A stretch of 43,559 nucleotides of DNA from positions 1-43,559 of the IMG/VR virus record IMGVR_UViG_3300042373_001113; one strand, given 5' to 3'. Below are positions 276-7,695 of the stretch, in pieces. A program made the position numbers and the translations under genes. The notes beneath the pieces are model-generated. The model saw nothing but the letters and a program-made list of their open reading frames with translations, was not told the origin of the DNA and made no database searches. Position 1 is the stretch's first letter. Every line of letters starts with the position of its first letter. Source of the DNA: a virus.

Positions 276-638
276 TCATCGTCTCCTCCCGTCGCGCGAC
301 AACGTGATCGTTCCGTCGCCGCAGCCGTCGCCGTAGCCGTAGCCGTAGCCGTCGCCGTAGCTGTAGCCGTAGCCGTAGCCGTAGCCGTAGCCGTTGCCGT
401 TGCCGTTGCCGTAGCCGTAGCCGTTGCCGTCGCCGTAGCCGTTGCCGTTGCCGTCGCCGTAGCTGTAGCCGTAGCCGTAGCCGTTGCCGTTGCCGTTGCC
501 GTTGCCGTAGCCTTTGCCGTAGCCGTTGCCGTTGCCGTTGCCGTCGCCGTAGCCGTTGCCGTAGCCGTAGCCGTTGCCGTAGCCGTAGCCGTAGCCGTAG
601 CCGTAGCCGTTGCCGACCGGTCGCATCACTGCATCCAT
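276..638 (-). CDS. Gly-Tyr/Asn/Asp dipeptide-repeat protein
   Basis: The start is ATG 638, which shares its A with the stop codon of the upstream gene (TGATG). The product is about 120 residues. After a short leader (MDAVMRPV) almost the whole protein alternates glycine with Tyr, Asn or Asp (GYGYGNGDG...), ending in a basic tail (SRDGRRR). No enzymatic motif is present. A gene at this position, in frame with its neighbours and without stops, argues for expression, but a low-complexity repeat can also stay open by chance. The opposite strand reads (LR)n/(RQ)n, which I treat as a shadow. It could be a disordered, self-associating or surface-binding protein; that is speculation. Confidence 0.55.
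   Translation of the reverse strand: MDAVMRPVGNGYGYGYGYGYGNGYGYGNGYGDGNGNGNGYGKGYGNGNGNGNGYGYGYSYGDGNGNGYGDGNGYGYGNGNGNGYGYGYGYGYSYGDGYGYGYGDGCGDGTITLSRDGRRR
312..616. repeat. Imperfect hexanucleotide tandem repeat, CCGTNG
   Basis: About 50 consecutive hexamers of the form ccgtag, ccgttg or ccgtcg. Nearly all variation is at one base of the unit, the first base of the TAC/AAC/GAC codon on the minus strand. The fourth option (CAC, His) is not seen. Rare exceptions are AGC (Ser) and one Lys codon. Unit length is a multiple of three, so slippage would change length but not frame. Confidence 0.9.
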
Positions 639-931
639 CACAACCCCCAATTGTCCGCCACCGGGACGCAGAAAATCTCAGCGCCCTCTGGCATGTCGAC
701 GTCAGCGATTGGGCGCAGATCCGCCTTGGCCGTCTCAACCATTTTCGCGAATCCGATGGACTCCCACTTGAAAACATGCAGCGCACGGCTGATGCGGATG
801 CGTCCGTTCTCTCTCGTGACATCGCCTGCAAAAATCCAACCGCGATCCACCACGACTACCGCGCGGGTGCCGGCGGGCTTGACCGAAACAGGAACGTATT
901 CGATGCCATTGATCGTGATCTTGTCGCTCAT
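638..931 (-). CDS. Small conserved-type phage early protein
   Basis: The product is about 97 residues from ATG 931 (MSDKITINGIEYVPV), placed behind a strong GGGAGG ribosome site. An in-frame ATG at 964 would add eleven residues and has its own AAGGAG site at the junction with the upstream gene, so either start is possible. The sequence looks like a small mixed alpha/beta protein; no family is recognised with confidence. It sits in the leftward accessory operon, its stop overlapping the start of the Gly-Tyr repeat gene. Confidence 0.6.
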   Translation of the reverse strand: MSDKITINGIEYVPVSVKPAGTRAVVVVDRGWIFAGDVTRENGRIRISRALHVFKWESIGFAKMVETAKADLRPIADVDMPEGAEIFCVPVADNWGL

Positions 932-2070: not shown

Positions 2071-2469
2071 TCACTGCGGGACTCCTAGTTCGATGCCAAG
2101 CTCGCTCGTGGCGTATGCCTCGATACGATCCATGTAGGCGGTGAAATCGGCCACCGACAGCGTGGTGGTGCTGATCGGCACGCTCGCGCCCGACGGCGTC
2201 TCGCTCCAGCCGATGAAGCGCCCGGCAAACTCGGCGTGCCACACGTCCGCCGTGTACTGCCGACCGCCGACCCACGCCGATGACGAGATGTCGTTCAGCA
2301 GCGCCCAATACCGGCGGTTCTGGTCGCCGCTGCGCTTGGCCTTCGCCTCGCACACCGTGACCGCCAGCGGCCGACCGGCCTGCGCCATCTCAAGCCAGTT
2401 GGCCTTGAGGAACGCCCAGAGCTGGCGGGCCTGCGGGGCCGAGCGGAGGATGAAGACGCGCTGCATCAT
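2071..2469 (-). CDS. ninB: NinB-like recombination mediator
   Basis: 132 residues from ATG 2469 (TGATG overlap with erf); GTG 2472 or ATG 2466 are alternative starts. The segment KAKRSGDQNRRYWALL, followed by a WHAEFAGRFIG block and a C-terminal YMDRIEAYATSELGI, is the hallmark of the lambda NinB (Orf) family. These proteins bind single-stranded DNA/SSB and substitute for RecFOR in phage recombination. Its position directly after an Erf-type annealing gene fits a recombination module. Function is from family knowledge. Confidence 0.88.
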   Translation of the reverse strand: MMQRVFILRSAPQARQLWAFLKANWLEMAQAGRPLAVTVCEAKAKRSGDQNRRYWALLNDISSSAWVGGRQYTADVWHAEFAGRFIGWSETPSGASVPISTTTLSVADFTAYMDRIEAYATSELGIELGVPQ

Positions 2470-3143
2470 CACGCGATGGCTTTGGACTTCTCAGTCGCCG
2501 CATACCCCGCGTATTCCTTGATCGCGGCACGCACCGCGCTGTGCTTGGACAGCATGTCCCACAGGATCATCCGGTCCTCGCCCATCACGCGCGACGCAGC
2601 GCGGTGCAGCTCCCAGAACCCGCTTGCGTCGTTCTCGCGCTCCATCTGCGACACGGCGGCGGCATGCGTAGCGATGCAGGCGTCAGCAACCTCGCGGATG
2701 GCCCGATGCTTGTCCGCCTCTGCGTCGGGCTGCTGTGCGCCGTTCTGCCGCGCGCCGTGGGGCTTGCTGGCTGCGTTGCCGTCGTCGTCCTCGGCGGGCA
2801 CGCCGAACGCGGTCATCAGCGAGTACCGACGACAGTACGTCAGCGCGCTGCCGAAGCCCTGCGCGTCATGCTTCGTCGCCGGGACGAACAGTGGCCCGCA
2901 CGGCAGCGACTGGCCGCTCTCGTGGTGGATCACGGTCTCGACGCAGACGCCACCCTCGACGCTGTGCGTGACCTGGCGGAACCACAACCCGTGGTCCGCA
3001 AGCGCCGGCTTGATCGCGTCAACCACCGACGACAGGTCCGCGTACTTGCTGCGGAACGCCGGGTTCGCTTTGCCCTTGATCGCGCCCTCGATCGCCGGGA
3101 ATGCTTTCGCCATCGCCGCGCTGAGTTCCTTGATGCTGTCCAT
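2469..3143 (-). CDS. erf: ERF-family single-strand annealing protein
   Basis: 224 residues from ATG 3143, behind GAGGAAGAGC. The N-terminal 120 residues carry the ERF family signature: MAKAFPAIEGAIKGKANPAF..KYADLSSV, the HHESGQSL block, and the GSALTYCRRYSL motif. This family anneals complementary single strands during recombination and genome circularisation. The C-terminal part (after residue 125) is variable and charged. It is coupled to ninB, giving a compact recombination module. Confidence 0.92.
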   Translation of the reverse strand: MDSIKELSAAMAKAFPAIEGAIKGKANPAFRSKYADLSSVVDAIKPALADHGLWFRQVTHSVEGGVCVETVIHHESGQSLPCGPLFVPATKHDAQGFGSALTYCRRYSLMTAFGVPAEDDDGNAASKPHGARQNGAQQPDAEADKHRAIREVADACIATHAAAVSQMERENDASGFWELHRAASRVMGEDRMILWDMLSKHSAVRAAIKEYAGYAATEKSKAIA

Positions 3144-3449: not shown

Positions 3450-3745
3450 GCCGCCCCCTGCGCGTTGACTGCCGCCGCGATCTCGCTTGCGGCCTGCTCG
3501 GTGGCGAACGTCATCCGCACGCCGTCGCTGTCGCACAGCGCCACGTAGACGCCCTGCGACACGCGGCGCGTCACGCCGTAGCCGGTGACACGCGCGCAAT
3601 CGACGTCGCTGCGCATGATCGGCGTCGGCACCCAGTCGCCGCGCATCTCCGCGCGGTGCTCGGCGCGCTCGCGGCGGATGTTGTCCGCGACGTCCGACGC
3701 ATGCGCCTCGGCGCGCTCCTGCTGCTCGAACGCGGCGCGGCTCAT
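3446..3745 (-). CDS. Early protein of unknown function
   Basis: 99 residues from ATG 3745 (ATGA overlap with the pentapeptide gene). It begins with a charged helix rich in Arg/Glu (AFEQQERAEAHASDVADNI), followed by a beta-rich half (GVYVALCDSDGVRMTFATEQAASEIAAAV) resembling a small modulator fold. No family is recognised. Confidence 0.55.
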   Translation of the reverse strand: MSRAAFEQQERAEAHASDVADNIRRERAEHRAEMRGDWVPTPIMRSDVDCARVTGYGVTRRVSQGVYVALCDSDGVRMTFATEQAASEIAAAVNAQGAA

Positions 3746-4644
3746 GCGGCCTCCGAAACAACGGCAGCCGGAGTCCAGCACTCCGCGTGCATCTCGATCA
3801 GTGCAATCGCTGCGGCGTACTCGCGGGCGTGGATTGACTCGCCGTGCGTCTTGATGACAGCGGCGCGGAACTTGTCCAGCGAGCCGAAGAAGCAACCCGC
3901 GCGCACCCGCACGCCCGCGTCGGTCAGGTACGCAACGACGTACGAGCTGCGCGATCCGATGGGGCCAATTTGAATAATCGGGCGCTTGCCGATCAGCTTG
4001 GCCCCGGCGAGGTTGGCCCCGGCGAGGTTGGCCCCGGCGAGGTTGGCCCCGGCGAGGTCGGCCCCGACGAGGTTGGCCCCGGCGAGGTTGGCCCCGGCGA
4101 GGTCGGCCCCGACGAGGTTGGCCCCGGCGAGGCTGGCCCCGGCGAGGTCGGCCCCGACGAGGTTGGCCCCGGCGAGGCTGGCCCCGGCGAGGTAGGCCCC
4201 GTCGAGCTTGGCCTCGGCGAGGTCGGCCCCGGCGAGGTCGGCATTGGCGAGGTCGGCCCCGCCGAGGTAGGCCCTGGCGAGGTCGGCCCCGGCGAGGTTG
4301 GCCCCGGCGAGGTCGGCCCCGACGAGGTTGGCCCCGGCGAGGTTGGCCCCGGCGAGGTCGGCCCCGACGAGGTTGGCCCCGCCGAGGTAGGCCCTGGCGA
4401 GGTCGGCCCCGGCGAGGTTGGCATTGGCGAGGTCGGCCCCGCCGAGGTAGGCCCTGGCGAGGTCGGCCCCGGCGAGGTTGGCCCCGCCGAGGTTGGCCCC
4501 GGCGAGGTAGGCCCCGTCGAGCTTGGCCCCGGCGAGGTAGGCCCCGTCGGATACCGCCGCCTCCACCACGTCTCGCAGCGACTCACCGTCGCCCGTGTAC
4601 AGCACGGCGCCCGTGTTGCGGTGCTTAATCGTGTGCTCAGCCAT
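3742..4644 (-). CDS. Pentapeptide-repeat protein
   Basis: 300 residues from ATG 4644 (TGATG overlap). After about 32 residues, some 35 uninterrupted pentapeptides of the A(D/N)LxxA type ([20 protein letters not shown]) fill about residues 33-205. They predict a right-handed quadrilateral beta-helix. The C-terminal 90 residues are a separate domain containing [25 protein letters not shown] and an [12 protein letters not shown] helix. That tail is similar to the small domain found after pentapeptide repeats in other phage proteins. Known pentapeptide proteins such as MfpA and Qnr mimic DNA and bind gyrase; whether this one does is untested. The DNA repeat is near-exact, suggesting recent expansion. 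Confidence 0.85.
4006..4545. repeat. 15-bp tandem repeats encoding pentapeptides
   Basis: Units of the type ggccccggcgaggtt/gtc repeat about 35 times, with a few recurrent variants (gacgaggtt, gccgaggta, attggcgag). Longer 45-90 bp blocks are also duplicated, for example the block ending in gccgaggtaggccctggcgagg, seen three times. This explains the spurious PGEVG and TSPGP frames in other readings. Confidence 0.9.
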
Positions 4645-4733
4645 CAGAACACCCGCCCGGCGATGAGTTGGTACATGAGCGCCGAGCACAGCGCCCACGC
4701 GGTCAGGTACGCGACAATTTTGGCGGCGGTCAT
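4644..4733 (-). CDS. 29-aa membrane peptide
   Basis: ATG 4733 overlaps the upstream stop by ATGA, and the stop overlaps the pentapeptide start by TGATG, so the reading frame is bracketed by coupled neighbours. The peptide is MTAAKIVAYLTAWALCSALM followed by YQLIAGRVF: a single transmembrane helix with a short basic end. Function is unknown. Confidence 0.5.
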   Translation of the reverse strand: MTAAKIVAYLTAWALCSALMYQLIAGRVF

Positions 4734-5083
4734 GCATCGCTCCAGTGCGATTCCGGAAGCGCGCCGCACTCGATCGACGCAGCGTCTGCGGCAAACATGC
4801 GATGCAAGCGGTGGCGCGCGGTGGGCGAGTAGATCGCCTCGGCCAGCGTGCGGGCCGCGTCGCCGCTGGTGTGCATCACCCACTCGACGAGCTCGACGCT
4901 GACGGGCGGGGCGGTCTCACGGCTCCAGTGCGCCGTCATGCACGCCAGCAGCGGGCGCGTCTCAAGGTCCGCGACGATCGCGGTCTCGCGCGTCGCACGC
5001 CAGGCTTGTTGCTTGGCGGTCTTGTCGGCAGCGCGGTCTTCGTACGCTGCGGCTGCGTCGGTCAGGTAGTCCCGGAATCCCAT
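4730..5083 (-). CDS. First gene of leftward early operon
   Basis: 117 residues from ATG 5083, placed 5 bases after GGAGGGC; the frame continues upstream but the ribosome site fixes this start. It begins MGFRDYLTDAAAAYEDRAADK. The middle contains RETAPPVSVELVEWVMHTSGDAARTLAEAI. It is the promoter-proximal gene of the leftward operon, about 40 bases from the -10 of the predicted pL, so it should be the first leftward product after induction. No family is recognised. Confidence 0.65.
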   Translation of the reverse strand: MGFRDYLTDAAAAYEDRAADKTAKQQAWRATRETAIVADLETRPLLACMTAHWSRETAPPVSVELVEWVMHTSGDAARTLAEAIYSPTARHRLHRMFAADAASIECGALPESHWSDA

Positions 5084-5120: not shown

Positions 5121-5161
5121 ACTGTACCCAAAGGTAATGCTCAGTGCAATACCCCAAGGTA
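5121..5161 (-). promoter_or_regulatory. Leftward early promoter with two operators
   Basis: On the minus strand -35 TTGCAC (5149-5144), a 17-base spacer and -10 TACAGT (5126-5121) form a plausible sigma-70 promoter. Operator TACCCAAAGGTA (5125-5136) covers the spacer and the edge of the -10. Operator TACCCCAAGGTA (5150-5161) abuts the -35. The two start points are 25 bases apart, exactly as for two of the sites at the ci-cro region. Repression by the CI-like protein is inferred. Confidence 0.75.
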
Positions 5162-5245
5162 ACGAAACATCGCGACCACCCAAGCGAGGGGGCAACCGGC
5201 GCTTTCGGCTGGTAGAGTCGCGCGATTGTGTTGTTCGGATCGAAC

Positions 5246-5680
5246 ATGAACAGAGCTGCTCTTGCGCGTGCGACCCTGGCCGCGGCCAGCGTGGTCACCG
5301 TCCTAGCCGGGTGCGCCAGCCCGCAAGGCCCGCGTGGGCCGCAGCCGCATGAGGCGAGCGACTACCTCATCTGCGTTTCGCAAATCCGGCCCGGGGTCAG
5401 CGAGAGCGATCGCCTGCGAGGCGCGGAACAGATGCGAGTGCGCAACCTCGATTGCAGGCCGTACGCCGCGAGCATCCTGACCGAGTACAACGCCCAGGCT
5501 GGCGCACAGGCGCAGCGCGACGCCGCAATGACGAACTTCGGCCTGCAGATGCTGCGGCAGGGGCAGGCGCCAATGCCTTCTTTCCCGGCGCCCGCGCCTG
5601 CGTCCGACACGCGGGTCTACAACTTCAACGGCCGCACGATGACCTGCACGACGTCGGCCGGCTACACGAACTGCTACTGA
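5246..5680 (+). CDS. Lipoprotein, possible lysogenic-conversion gene
   Basis: 144 residues from ATG 5246. A signal peptide (MNRAALARATLAAASVVTVLAGC) ends in a clear LAGC lipobox with Cys23, so the mature protein should be lipidated, probably to the outer membrane. The body is hydrophilic with further cysteines (LICVSQ, LDCRPY) and a C-terminus TRVYNFNGRTMTCTTS..TNCY. The gene faces away from the leftward operon and toward ci, on its own strand, together with the next gene. This is the position and orientation of a moron expressed in the lysogen. Function is unknown. Confidence 0.75.
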   Translation: MNRAALARATLAAASVVTVLAGCASPQGPRGPQPHEASDYLICVSQIRPGVSESDRLRGAEQMRVRNLDCRPYAASILTEYNAQAGAQAQRDAAMTNFGLQMLRQGQAPMPSFPAPAPASDTRVYNFNGRTMTCTTSAGYTNCY

Positions 5681-5684
5681 CGCC

Positions 5685-5972
5685 GTGAACGGGAGCGAAG
5701 GGCTGCGTCGCATCGCGGCGGTAATCCGGTGGATCGGGATAGGGTTGGCCGCGGCTTCCCTGTTGTTCGGGCTTGCCATGACTGTGACCGTTCTTGGCGA
5801 CCACTTGTCGTGCGTGCCGACTATTGCCCGCGACGGATCGGTCTTGGAATGTCGAAGCCGGCTAGGCGAGATGGCAGGTGGCGTGGCCGGAGGCCTCGGC
5901 TTCGCCGCGTTCTTCTACATCGGCGCTCGAGTAACCGCCTGGATCATCGAGGGGTTCGCCGCGCCGAAGTAG
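5685..5972 (+). CDS. Two-helix membrane protein, moron partner
   Basis: 95 residues from GTG 5685, 4 bases after the lipoprotein stop. Two hydrophobic helices (about 10-40, IGLAAASLLFGLAMTVTVL, and 65-88, GGVAGGLGFAAFFYIGARV) flank a short loop with two cysteines (LSCVPT, LECRSR). It is convergent with ci. With the preceding lipoprotein it forms a two-gene envelope unit; superinfection exclusion or a host-surface change are possibilities, not demonstrated. Confidence 0.65.
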   Translation: MNGSEGLRRIAAVIRWIGIGLAAASLLFGLAMTVTVLGDHLSCVPTIARDGSVLECRSRLGEMAGGVAGGLGFAAFFYIGARVTAWIIEGFAAPK

Positions 5973-5991
5973 GGCGGGCGAATCCCCTCGG

Positions 5992-6768
5992 CTACAGCAC
6001 CTTCGCCGTCCAGGCCAGCAGCGCGCGGCCGTGCACCTGGTACGCCGCGCGGTCGCCGCGGGCGATTCGCCGATCGCGATACCGCGGGTTGTCGCTGATC
6101 ACCGTCAGCGAGCCATCGTCCTCGCGCTGCAGGCGCTTCACGAGCAGCTCGCCGTCGCGCGAATAGACGTAGACGCCGTCGCGGTCGATCGCTGACACGC
6201 CCGAGTCGACGAGCAGCACGTCGCCGTCCTCGAAGGTGCCCGCCATGCTGTCCCCGTAGGCCGAGAGCAGCTTCAGGTTCTTCAGGCTGGTGAACGTCGT
6301 GCGGATCAGCCGCCGGCGCAGCCCCTCTTTGGACACCCGCACGAGCGTCACCACGTCGCTCGCGCCGTCACTGCCTTCGCCCATCATCGCCCGGACCCCT
6401 TCGTACTGCGGAAGCCACATCTCACCGGGGCGCAGGCTCAGCATCTGAGCTTGGGTGTGGGGCTCGCCCAAGAGGGTCAGGTTGCCGGCTGAGGAAGCGG
6501 TCGTCTTCGCCTGAATGACGGCTGCGGTATGCCCGCTCGAGTCGATCAGCACGACATCGGGCCGATCCAGCCACCCAACCGGCATCTCCGTCTGCTGCTC
6601 AACGAAGCGCGCGAAGTCCTCTCCTATCCGCTTCGTGCCCTTGAGGCAACGCGAAATGTAGTCGGGCTGGCGCTCGATCGCCGTTGCCAGGCCGACCTGC
6701 TTGCCGCCGAACTTTGTGTCGATCAGTTCGCGCAGGCGGGCGCGTCTGGTTTCGTAGATATCCACCAC
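5992..6768 (-). CDS. CI-like repressor, S24 self-cleaving type
   Basis: 258 residues from GTG 6768; GTG 6765 is an alternative. N-terminal helix-turn-helix at about residues 22-55 (KQVGLATAIERQPDYISRCLKG). The C-terminal S24/LexA-like domain has YGDSMAGTFEDGD with nucleophile Ser174 and the general-base Lys211 in ELLVKRLQ. This is the classic prophage repressor that keeps the lytic promoters off and cleaves itself with RecA after DNA damage. It faces a cro-like gene across an operator cluster. Operators at both the leftward promoter and this site support its role. Confidence 0.92.
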   Translation of the reverse strand: MVDIYETRRARLRELIDTKFGGKQVGLATAIERQPDYISRCLKGTKRIGEDFARFVEQQTEMPVGWLDRPDVVLIDSSGHTAAVIQAKTTASSAGNLTLLGEPHTQAQMLSLRPGEMWLPQYEGVRAMMGEGSDGASDVVTLVRVSKEGLRRRLIRTTFTSLKNLKLLSAYGDSMAGTFEDGDVLLVDSGVSAIDRDGVYVYSRDGELLVKRLQREDDGSLTVISDNPRYRDRRIARGDRAAYQVHGRALLAWTAKVL

Positions 6769-6790
6769 GACCGGAGCATCTTCCGCCGAG

Positions 6791-6846
6791 TACCCGCGAG
6801 TAAATGGCCCGCGGGTATTGACCGGAAGTGTACCCACGGGTAATCT
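6791..6846 (+). promoter_or_regulatory. ci-cro operator region with rightward promoter
   Basis: Three operator-like palindromes: TACCCGCGAGTA (6791-6802), a half-degenerate GGCCCGCGGGTA (6806-6817) and TACCCACGGGTA (6831-6842). The rightward promoter has -35 TTGACC (6818-6823), a 17-base spacer and -10 TAATCT (6841-6846). The middle site abuts the -35 and the right site covers spacer and -10. The left site overlaps a weak leftward -10 (TTTACT, 6804-6799) for ci. The layout mirrors lambda OR3-OR2-OR1. Confidence 0.78.
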
Positions 6847-6853
6847 TCGTGGC

Positions 6854-7123
6854 ATGGAACCACTGCGCCAGCACCTCAACAGCCTGCCTCCGTCGGAGCA
6901 GGCCGCGTTCGCTGACCGCTGCGGCACGACCATCGGCTACCTCCGGAAGGCTCTCAGCACTGGCGCCGTTCTGCGGCCCGAGCTGATGGTTGCGATCGAG
7001 GCCGAGTCGGGGCGGCAGGTCCGTCGATGGGCCATGCGCCCGACCGACTGGCACCGCGTCTGGCCCGAGTTGATCGGCACGCCTGGCGCCCCGGACGTCC
7101 CGAAGCAGGAAGCCGCGGCATGA
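6854..7123 (+). CDS. YdaS/Cro-like repressor
   Basis: 89 residues from ATG 6854. Residues 1-50 contain a helix-turn-helix (LPPSEQAAFADRCGTTIGYLRKAL), then ELMVAIEAESGRQVRRWAMRPTDWHRVWPELIG, the typical YdaS/Cro ending in which W-MRP-DW-WPEL is diagnostic. It is the first gene of the rightward operon and divergent from ci, as expected of a Cro that competes for the same operators. No ribosome site precedes it, and the predicted transcription start falls at or next to its ATG. Confidence 0.85.
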   Translation: MEPLRQHLNSLPPSEQAAFADRCGTTIGYLRKALSTGAVLRPELMVAIEAESGRQVRRWAMRPTDWHRVWPELIGTPGAPDVPKQEAAA

Positions 7124-7227: not shown

Positions 7228-7695
7228 ATGGCCGCAGTCTCTCCTTTCCCGTCCACGATCGACCGTCAACCGCCGTCGAGAGTGTCGACGGCCCTTGCCG
7301 GACGCCAGCTCCCGATGGTCACGCCCGGCGATCCGATCGACGTTGACCCGGCGTTGGTCCACCGCCAGTCGTCGATGACTGCGGCGATCCAGCTCTGCCT
7401 GCAGGCGGCCGGCATCGCCGACAAGGAGGCACACCTCGCGCTCGGGATCGATGCCGGCCACTGGTCGCGGATCCTGCGCGGCGACGCGCACTTCCCGCTG
7501 CACCTGCTCGGCCCGCTGATGGATCTCGCCGGCAACGAGGCGCCGCTCGAGTGGTTGGCGCACAGCCGCGGCTACGAGCTGCGCCCGCTCGAGACCGAGC
7601 TCGAGCGCCAGGTGCGCGAGGAGCAGGAGCGCAACGCCCGGCTCGCCGACGAGAACCGGCTGCTGCGCGAGATGCTGGTCGGGAGGGGGCGGTGA
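7228..7695 (+). CDS. HTH regulator with C-terminal coiled coil
   Basis: 155 residues from ATG 7228, behind GAGG. The centre (about 50-90, MTAAIQLCLQAAGIADKEAHLALGI) reads as a helix-turn-helix like the CII or DNA-binding domains of phage regulators, followed by AGHWSRILRGDAHFP. Residues 115-150 are a long charged heptad-like helix (LETELERQVREEQERNARLADEN) that would oligomerise. Its position after cro suits a CII-type lysogeny activator, but sequence does not prove it. Confidence 0.6.
   Translation: MAAVSPFPSTIDRQPPSRVSTALAGRQLPMVTPGDPIDVDPALVHRQSSMTAAIQLCLQAAGIADKEAHLALGIDAGHWSRILRGDAHFPLHLLGPLMDLAGNEAPLEWLAHSRGYELRPLETELERQVREEQERNARLADENRLLREMLVGRGR

Follow-up and report, generated by a model that had tools for sequence, protein, structure and literature searches.

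OL/OR immunity switches of the lambda kind, each with operators of its own, are already known. In lambdoid phages, OR1 is intrinsically the strongest right operator and OR2 the weakest before cooperativity acts, and in phage 933W, which has no OL3, cooperative binding is reported to be absent (PMC3317979). Looping between OL and OR, at distances of 0.6–2.3 kb, has been found for the repressors of lambda, HK022 and phiKO2, that is, for all three lambdoid repressors tested (PMC8053113). In CP-933P, a prophage of E. coli O157, the YdaS protein opposes a CI-like repressor, PaaR2, which has a leaderless message, and the two proteins bind overlapping regions (PMC8630535).

Here, we describe five sites close to TACC-N4-GGTA in the window, the whole 43,559-base stretch of viral DNA that was analysed. 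Judged from the sequence and its conservation, they are very probably the operators of the phage's own CI repressor, in an immunity region of the lambda type.

Probable operators and promoters of the immunity region

The five sites had been listed in an earlier note on this DNA, and all are present where it placed them (Table 1). The exact motif occurs three times in the record, against 0.02 copies expected, and always within the immunity region, which is the outcome of the full-genome scan that the note had called for; "full genome" here means 43.6 kb, as the window is the entire viral record, with no larger genome behind it. If one mismatch is tolerated, copies are not rare (six found, 2.9 expected).

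Table 1. Coordinates of operators, promoters and genes in the window
Feature	Position	Strand	Sequence or match	Remarks
OL1	5125-5136		TACCCAAAGGTA	exact; in PL spacer, final two bases common to PL -10
OL2	5150-5161		TACCCCAAGGTA	exact; abuts PL -35
OR3	6791-6802		TACCCGCGAGTA	1 mismatch; overlaps -35 of cI promoter
OR2	6806-6817		GGCCCGCGGGTA	2 mismatches; weak outer half; between -35 boxes of PR and PRM
OR1	6831-6842		TACCCACGGGTA	exact; in PR spacer, final two bases common to PR -10
PL	5121-5149	-	TTGCAC (5149-5144), 17 bp, TACAGT (5126-5121)	orientation kept in relatives
PR	6818-6846	+	TTGACC (6818-6823), 17 bp, TAATCT (6841-6846)	
PRM (candidate)	6775-6804	-	TTTACT (6804-6799), 18 bp, GATGCT (6780-6775)	position kept in relatives
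cI	5992-6768	-	S24 domain	258 aa from GTG 6768; HTH in residues 1-70
Cro/YdaS-like gene	6854-7123	+	phrog_35, E=2e-10	divergent from cI
CII-like gene	7228-7695	+	phrog_101, E=6e-4 (weak)	rightward operon
Leftward operon gene 1	4730-5083	-	no family match	117 aa
ERF annealing protein	2469-3143			further along leftward operon
Small lipoprotein-like ORF	5228-5680	+		between OL and cI, convergent to cI
Small ORF containing hydrophobic segments	5685-5972	+		between OL and cI, convergent to cI

The 25-base offset that had been pointed out in both pairs singles them out, as the two best pairs at this phase in the record are the left pair at 5125 (16/16) and the right pair at 6806 (14/16), and no pair scoring at least 14/16 arose when the whole record was shuffled 300 times at the dinucleotide level. 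On the right, OR1 and OR2 are 25 bp apart and OR2 and OR3 15 bp. A matrix built from relatives only ranks the sites at 5125, 6831 and 5150 first, second and third in the record and the one at 6791 fifth; the site at 6806 falls outside the top 20, is weak by itself, and is accepted as OR2 because its position is common to the relatives. By sequence, OR2 is the poorest match among the right sites, which agrees with the lambdoid phages.

PL and PR are built alike. In both, the -35 is flanked by two operators, the outer one ending directly before the box, and the final TA of the inner operator doubles as part of the -10. The hexamers and 17-base spacers proposed for the two promoters are confirmed by the sequence, while a sigma-70 consensus scan of the record returned no promoter, the hexamers being too far from consensus. 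The site at 6791-6802, which the earlier note had left unassigned, is OR3 over the cI promoter: the weak PRM candidate begins between OR2 and OR3, so that OR3 covers its -35, and its -10, GATGCT, is a poor match. GTG 6768 lies six bases past this -10 and 37 bp from OR2. On the other side, the cro ATG (6854) follows OR1 by 11 bp and the PR -10 by about 7 bp, a layout suggesting that the cro message may be leaderless. The same arrangement is seen in two relatives (L240 and L252), most others having the cro start 24–38 bp past OR1.

Among the neighbouring genes, the first of the leftward operon showed no likeness to an N antiterminator in family searches. The same searches gave no significant match for the two small ORFs between OL and cI, which have no clear promoter either; the label "moron" attached to them earlier is a guess from position. 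Further left, 3742-4644 (-) encodes a 300-aa pentapeptide-repeat protein (Pfam Pentapeptide, E=4e-55) whose coding DNA is a near-perfect short repeat, and an ORF at 276-650 (-) has a long run of Gly-Tyr/Gly-Asn repeats with a sub-threshold Pfam match only.

Relatives gathered by repressor similarity

As the loci compared earlier had been picked by motif, a second collection was made by protein alone. Repressors were gathered by their N-terminal domain only, giving 29 after dereplication, 28 of them with enough sequence. An OR pair scoring at least 13/16 lies upstream of cI in 23 of these 28 relatives, against 1 of 560 shuffles, and an OL pair scoring at least 15/16 lies within 2.5 kb past cI in 22 of 28, against 0 of 84 shuffles (best 12). 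These counts bear on the suspicion that the sites are chance palindromes around ordinary promoters, which draws on the merely twofold enrichment of the one-mismatch motif in the record and on the weakness of the site at 6806. The shuffle tests and the geometry kept in this unbiased sample rule that out, leaving chance a negligible prospect.

The likeness extends to fine details. Counting the window, 25 sets carry the triple OR1-N11/12/13-OR2-N3-OR3, 17 of them with N13, and the outer half of OR2 is degenerate in most relatives too. OR2 and the cI start are 35–37 bp apart in 19 of 23 relatives, and the window agrees if GTG 6768 is its start; this distance, together with a TTTACC -35, indicates that the cI mRNA is probably leaderless. 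CP-933P provides a precedent both for this proposed leaderless start and for the Cro/YdaS-like gene. With unbiased and motif-chosen loci pooled, the PR -35 points away from cI in 97 cases versus 2, and the PL -35 along cI in 111 versus 1, the -35 boxes having played no part in choosing the sites. When the promoters of the relatives are aligned, TTGA follows directly after the outer site, and the TA of the inner site opens TAAnnT. The earlier proposal that the logic of lambda OL and OR is reproduced here, with an operator of 12 bp that differs from lambda's, is strongly supported by this comparison, as the pairs, their 25-bp phase, and the placement and directions of the promoters recur beside CI relatives, those gathered by protein alone included.

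Two relatives (L278 and L242) have no motif at OR and a third (L298) has a partial one only; L242 lacks the YxSR helix as well. A nucleotide search of phage records and a protein search of genome contigs gave no match, and a protein search of viral contigs returned one relative, L004, without the motif. Repressors sharing the same HTH (L062 and similar loci) differ in their C-terminal domain, some of these domains being near lambda CI (E=3e-29 to 2ho0), and such variety suggests domain shuffling within the switch.

Scans by motif give a wider view. In IMG/VR, two TACC-N4-GGTA sites 25 bp apart were found in at least 120 stretches, with at least 92 distinct 37-mers. When the gap of a TACCY..RGGTA pair could take any length from 0 to 30, N13 formed the peak, with about 75 of 120 among the matches listed, a figure counted from reused versus new loci, the pooled loci including those from the N13 scan; among the same listed matches, N14 gave 18 distinct pairs and every other spacing 4 or fewer. 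Across 84,980 GTDB species genomes, 52 stretches match, mostly from beta- and gammaproteobacteria; about 33 of the 52 lie within 2.5 kb of a CI relative, and many of the others are truncated by the limits of the retrieved sequence. In a class-wide genome scan, chromosomes seldom contained an exact 25-bp pair (2 of 369, control 0), and for this reason no host range is drawn from that scan.

Recognition helix, operator type and the proposed switch

In the predicted fold of CI, the recognition helix comprises residues 35–43, PDYISRCLK, of which Y37, S39 and R40 do not vary in either of the two alignments. The predicted HTH superposes on that of the phage SPC32H Rep with 1.1 Å over 70 residues. 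In the S24 domain, Ser174 and Lys212 are present, and Met-Gly stands where the Ala-Gly cleavage bond is expected. Residues 128–130 (near 6380), the usual cleavable spot, read Met-Met-Gly, which L004 has too, and because this replaces the usual Ala-Gly, self-cleavage of CI on DNA damage is uncertain.

Named phages link this helix to the operator. CharmingMan and PseuP_224 are close matches, the latter with OR1-OR2 one base shorter; the OR spacings of Mannheimia phage 587AP2 are 25 and 16; and JBD68 has a weaker version with AACC half-sites. In the phages compared, a helix of the form [PA]xY[IVL][SA]R goes with TACC-N4-GGTA. TACC-N5-GGTA lies beside the repressor genes of SPC32H and BUCT711 (NLVNRW) and of SfV and EPP-1 (PTQTSR/PTQISR), these four being loci L226 (SfV), L227 (EPP-1), L229 (BUCT711) and L232 (SPC32H). 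AV001 (PAHLSQ) and IFTN9 have unrelated sites. Across phages, operator type thus tracks the CI recognition helix. The window has the marks of the TACC-N4-GGTA group as we define it, namely PDYISR, which fits [PA]xYxSR, the N13 and N3 spacings, which fit OR1-N12/13-OR2-N3-OR3, and OR2 at 37 bp from GTG 6768, within the 35–37 bp of the group; an operator of the SPC32H/epsilon15 Rep type (TACC-N5-GGTA) was considered and rejected, the window having N4 instead.

This link to the helix also bears on which protein owns the sites. They might mainly be operators of the Cro/YdaS-like protein, CI binding another or an overlapping sequence; Cro and CI of lambda do have operators in common, and the Cro encoded in the window belongs to the same broad class as YdaS, whose binding region overlaps that of PaaR2 in CP-933P. 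Yet the site type tracks the helix of CI, and the sites stay unchanged beside unrelated-looking Cro proteins (MKTRHEGLLCWLR... in L246, MNELRIYLNN... in L253), which makes ownership by Cro improbable.

In the CI switch that we favour, CI dimers would read the TACC half-sites via helix 3. In the lysogen, CI on OR1 and OR2 would cover the PR spacer and -10 together with the upstream border of its -35, turning off the cro operon, and CI on OL1 and OL2 would turn off PL and the recombination operon. OR2 abuts the PRM -35, which could let CI boost its own synthesis, and OR3, lying over that -35, would shut off cI at high CI or on binding of Cro. The 25-bp pairs (about 2.4 turns) would suit pairwise cooperative binding, and the two pairs, 1.67 kb apart, an octamer loop.

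Looping between OL and OR over 1.67 kb, as suggested earlier, is plausible because every lambdoid repressor tested, those of lambda, HK022 and phiKO2, does so at 0.6–2.3 kb (PMC8053113). The operators could instead act with OL and OR independent of each other. The distance between OR and OL in the relatives ranges from 494 to 2879 bp with no preferred length, and a search for a third left operator found none in the window, such a site being seen in 3 of 111 modules; 933W likewise lacks OL3 and is the phage reported as non-cooperative (PMC3317979). Set against the looping of all three repressors, independence is a serious contender, somewhat below an even chance.

Comparison with known systems

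Many proteobacterial temperate phages share this layout, and the motif of one GC-rich virus becomes a rule by which operators, lytic promoters and cI promoters can be predicted from sequence in many prophages. This class-wide rule may be novel: no description of a TACC-N4-GGTA operator class was found in the searched open subset of the literature, where the exact operator strings gave unrelated matches only, and mEp043, a lambdoid coliphage with the identical operator class, is in databases with its operators unannotated as such. Immunity specificity and the basis of cross-immunity within the group become testable, and related repressor–operator pairs are now at hand as a set for study. More tentatively, with only just less than an even chance in our estimate, one unnamed code (TACC-N4-GGTA with [PA]xYxSR, fixed 25/15-bp geometry and built-in promoter boxes) may run across beta- and gammaproteobacterial temperate phages while the repressor C-termini vary. 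If so, the central four bases and a small number of helix residues would set immunity specificity, and otherwise unrelated phages should often be cross-immune.

With lambda, the window shares a CI with HTH and S24 domains encoded between lytic promoters that face outward, a right-hand set of three operators at PR/PRM, the same kind of operator at PL, a divergent cro and probably a leaderless cI; it differs in the 12-bp operator and the 25- and 15-bp right spacings, in having two left operators, and in an HTH of another sequence group. In 933W, too, OR and OL carry lambdoid operators with no OL3, but its operator is 15 bp long with another half-site. SPC32H Rep (epsilon15 group; PDB 5d50) has the same HTH fold at 33% identity, and TACC/GGTA half-sites adjoin its rep gene, whereas their centre has five bases, the sites are 17 bp apart, and Rep has a different C-terminal domain and is accompanied by the Ant antirepressor. 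In mEp043 (Aguilavirus), the annotated N antiterminator and CII, the normal cro leader and the absence of genes convergent to cI set it apart from the window, but the TACC-N4-GGTA sites, the 25- and 15-bp OR spacings, the 25-bp OL pair around an annotated putative PL upstream of N, and a CI helix, PSYVSR, resembling PDYISR are all alike.
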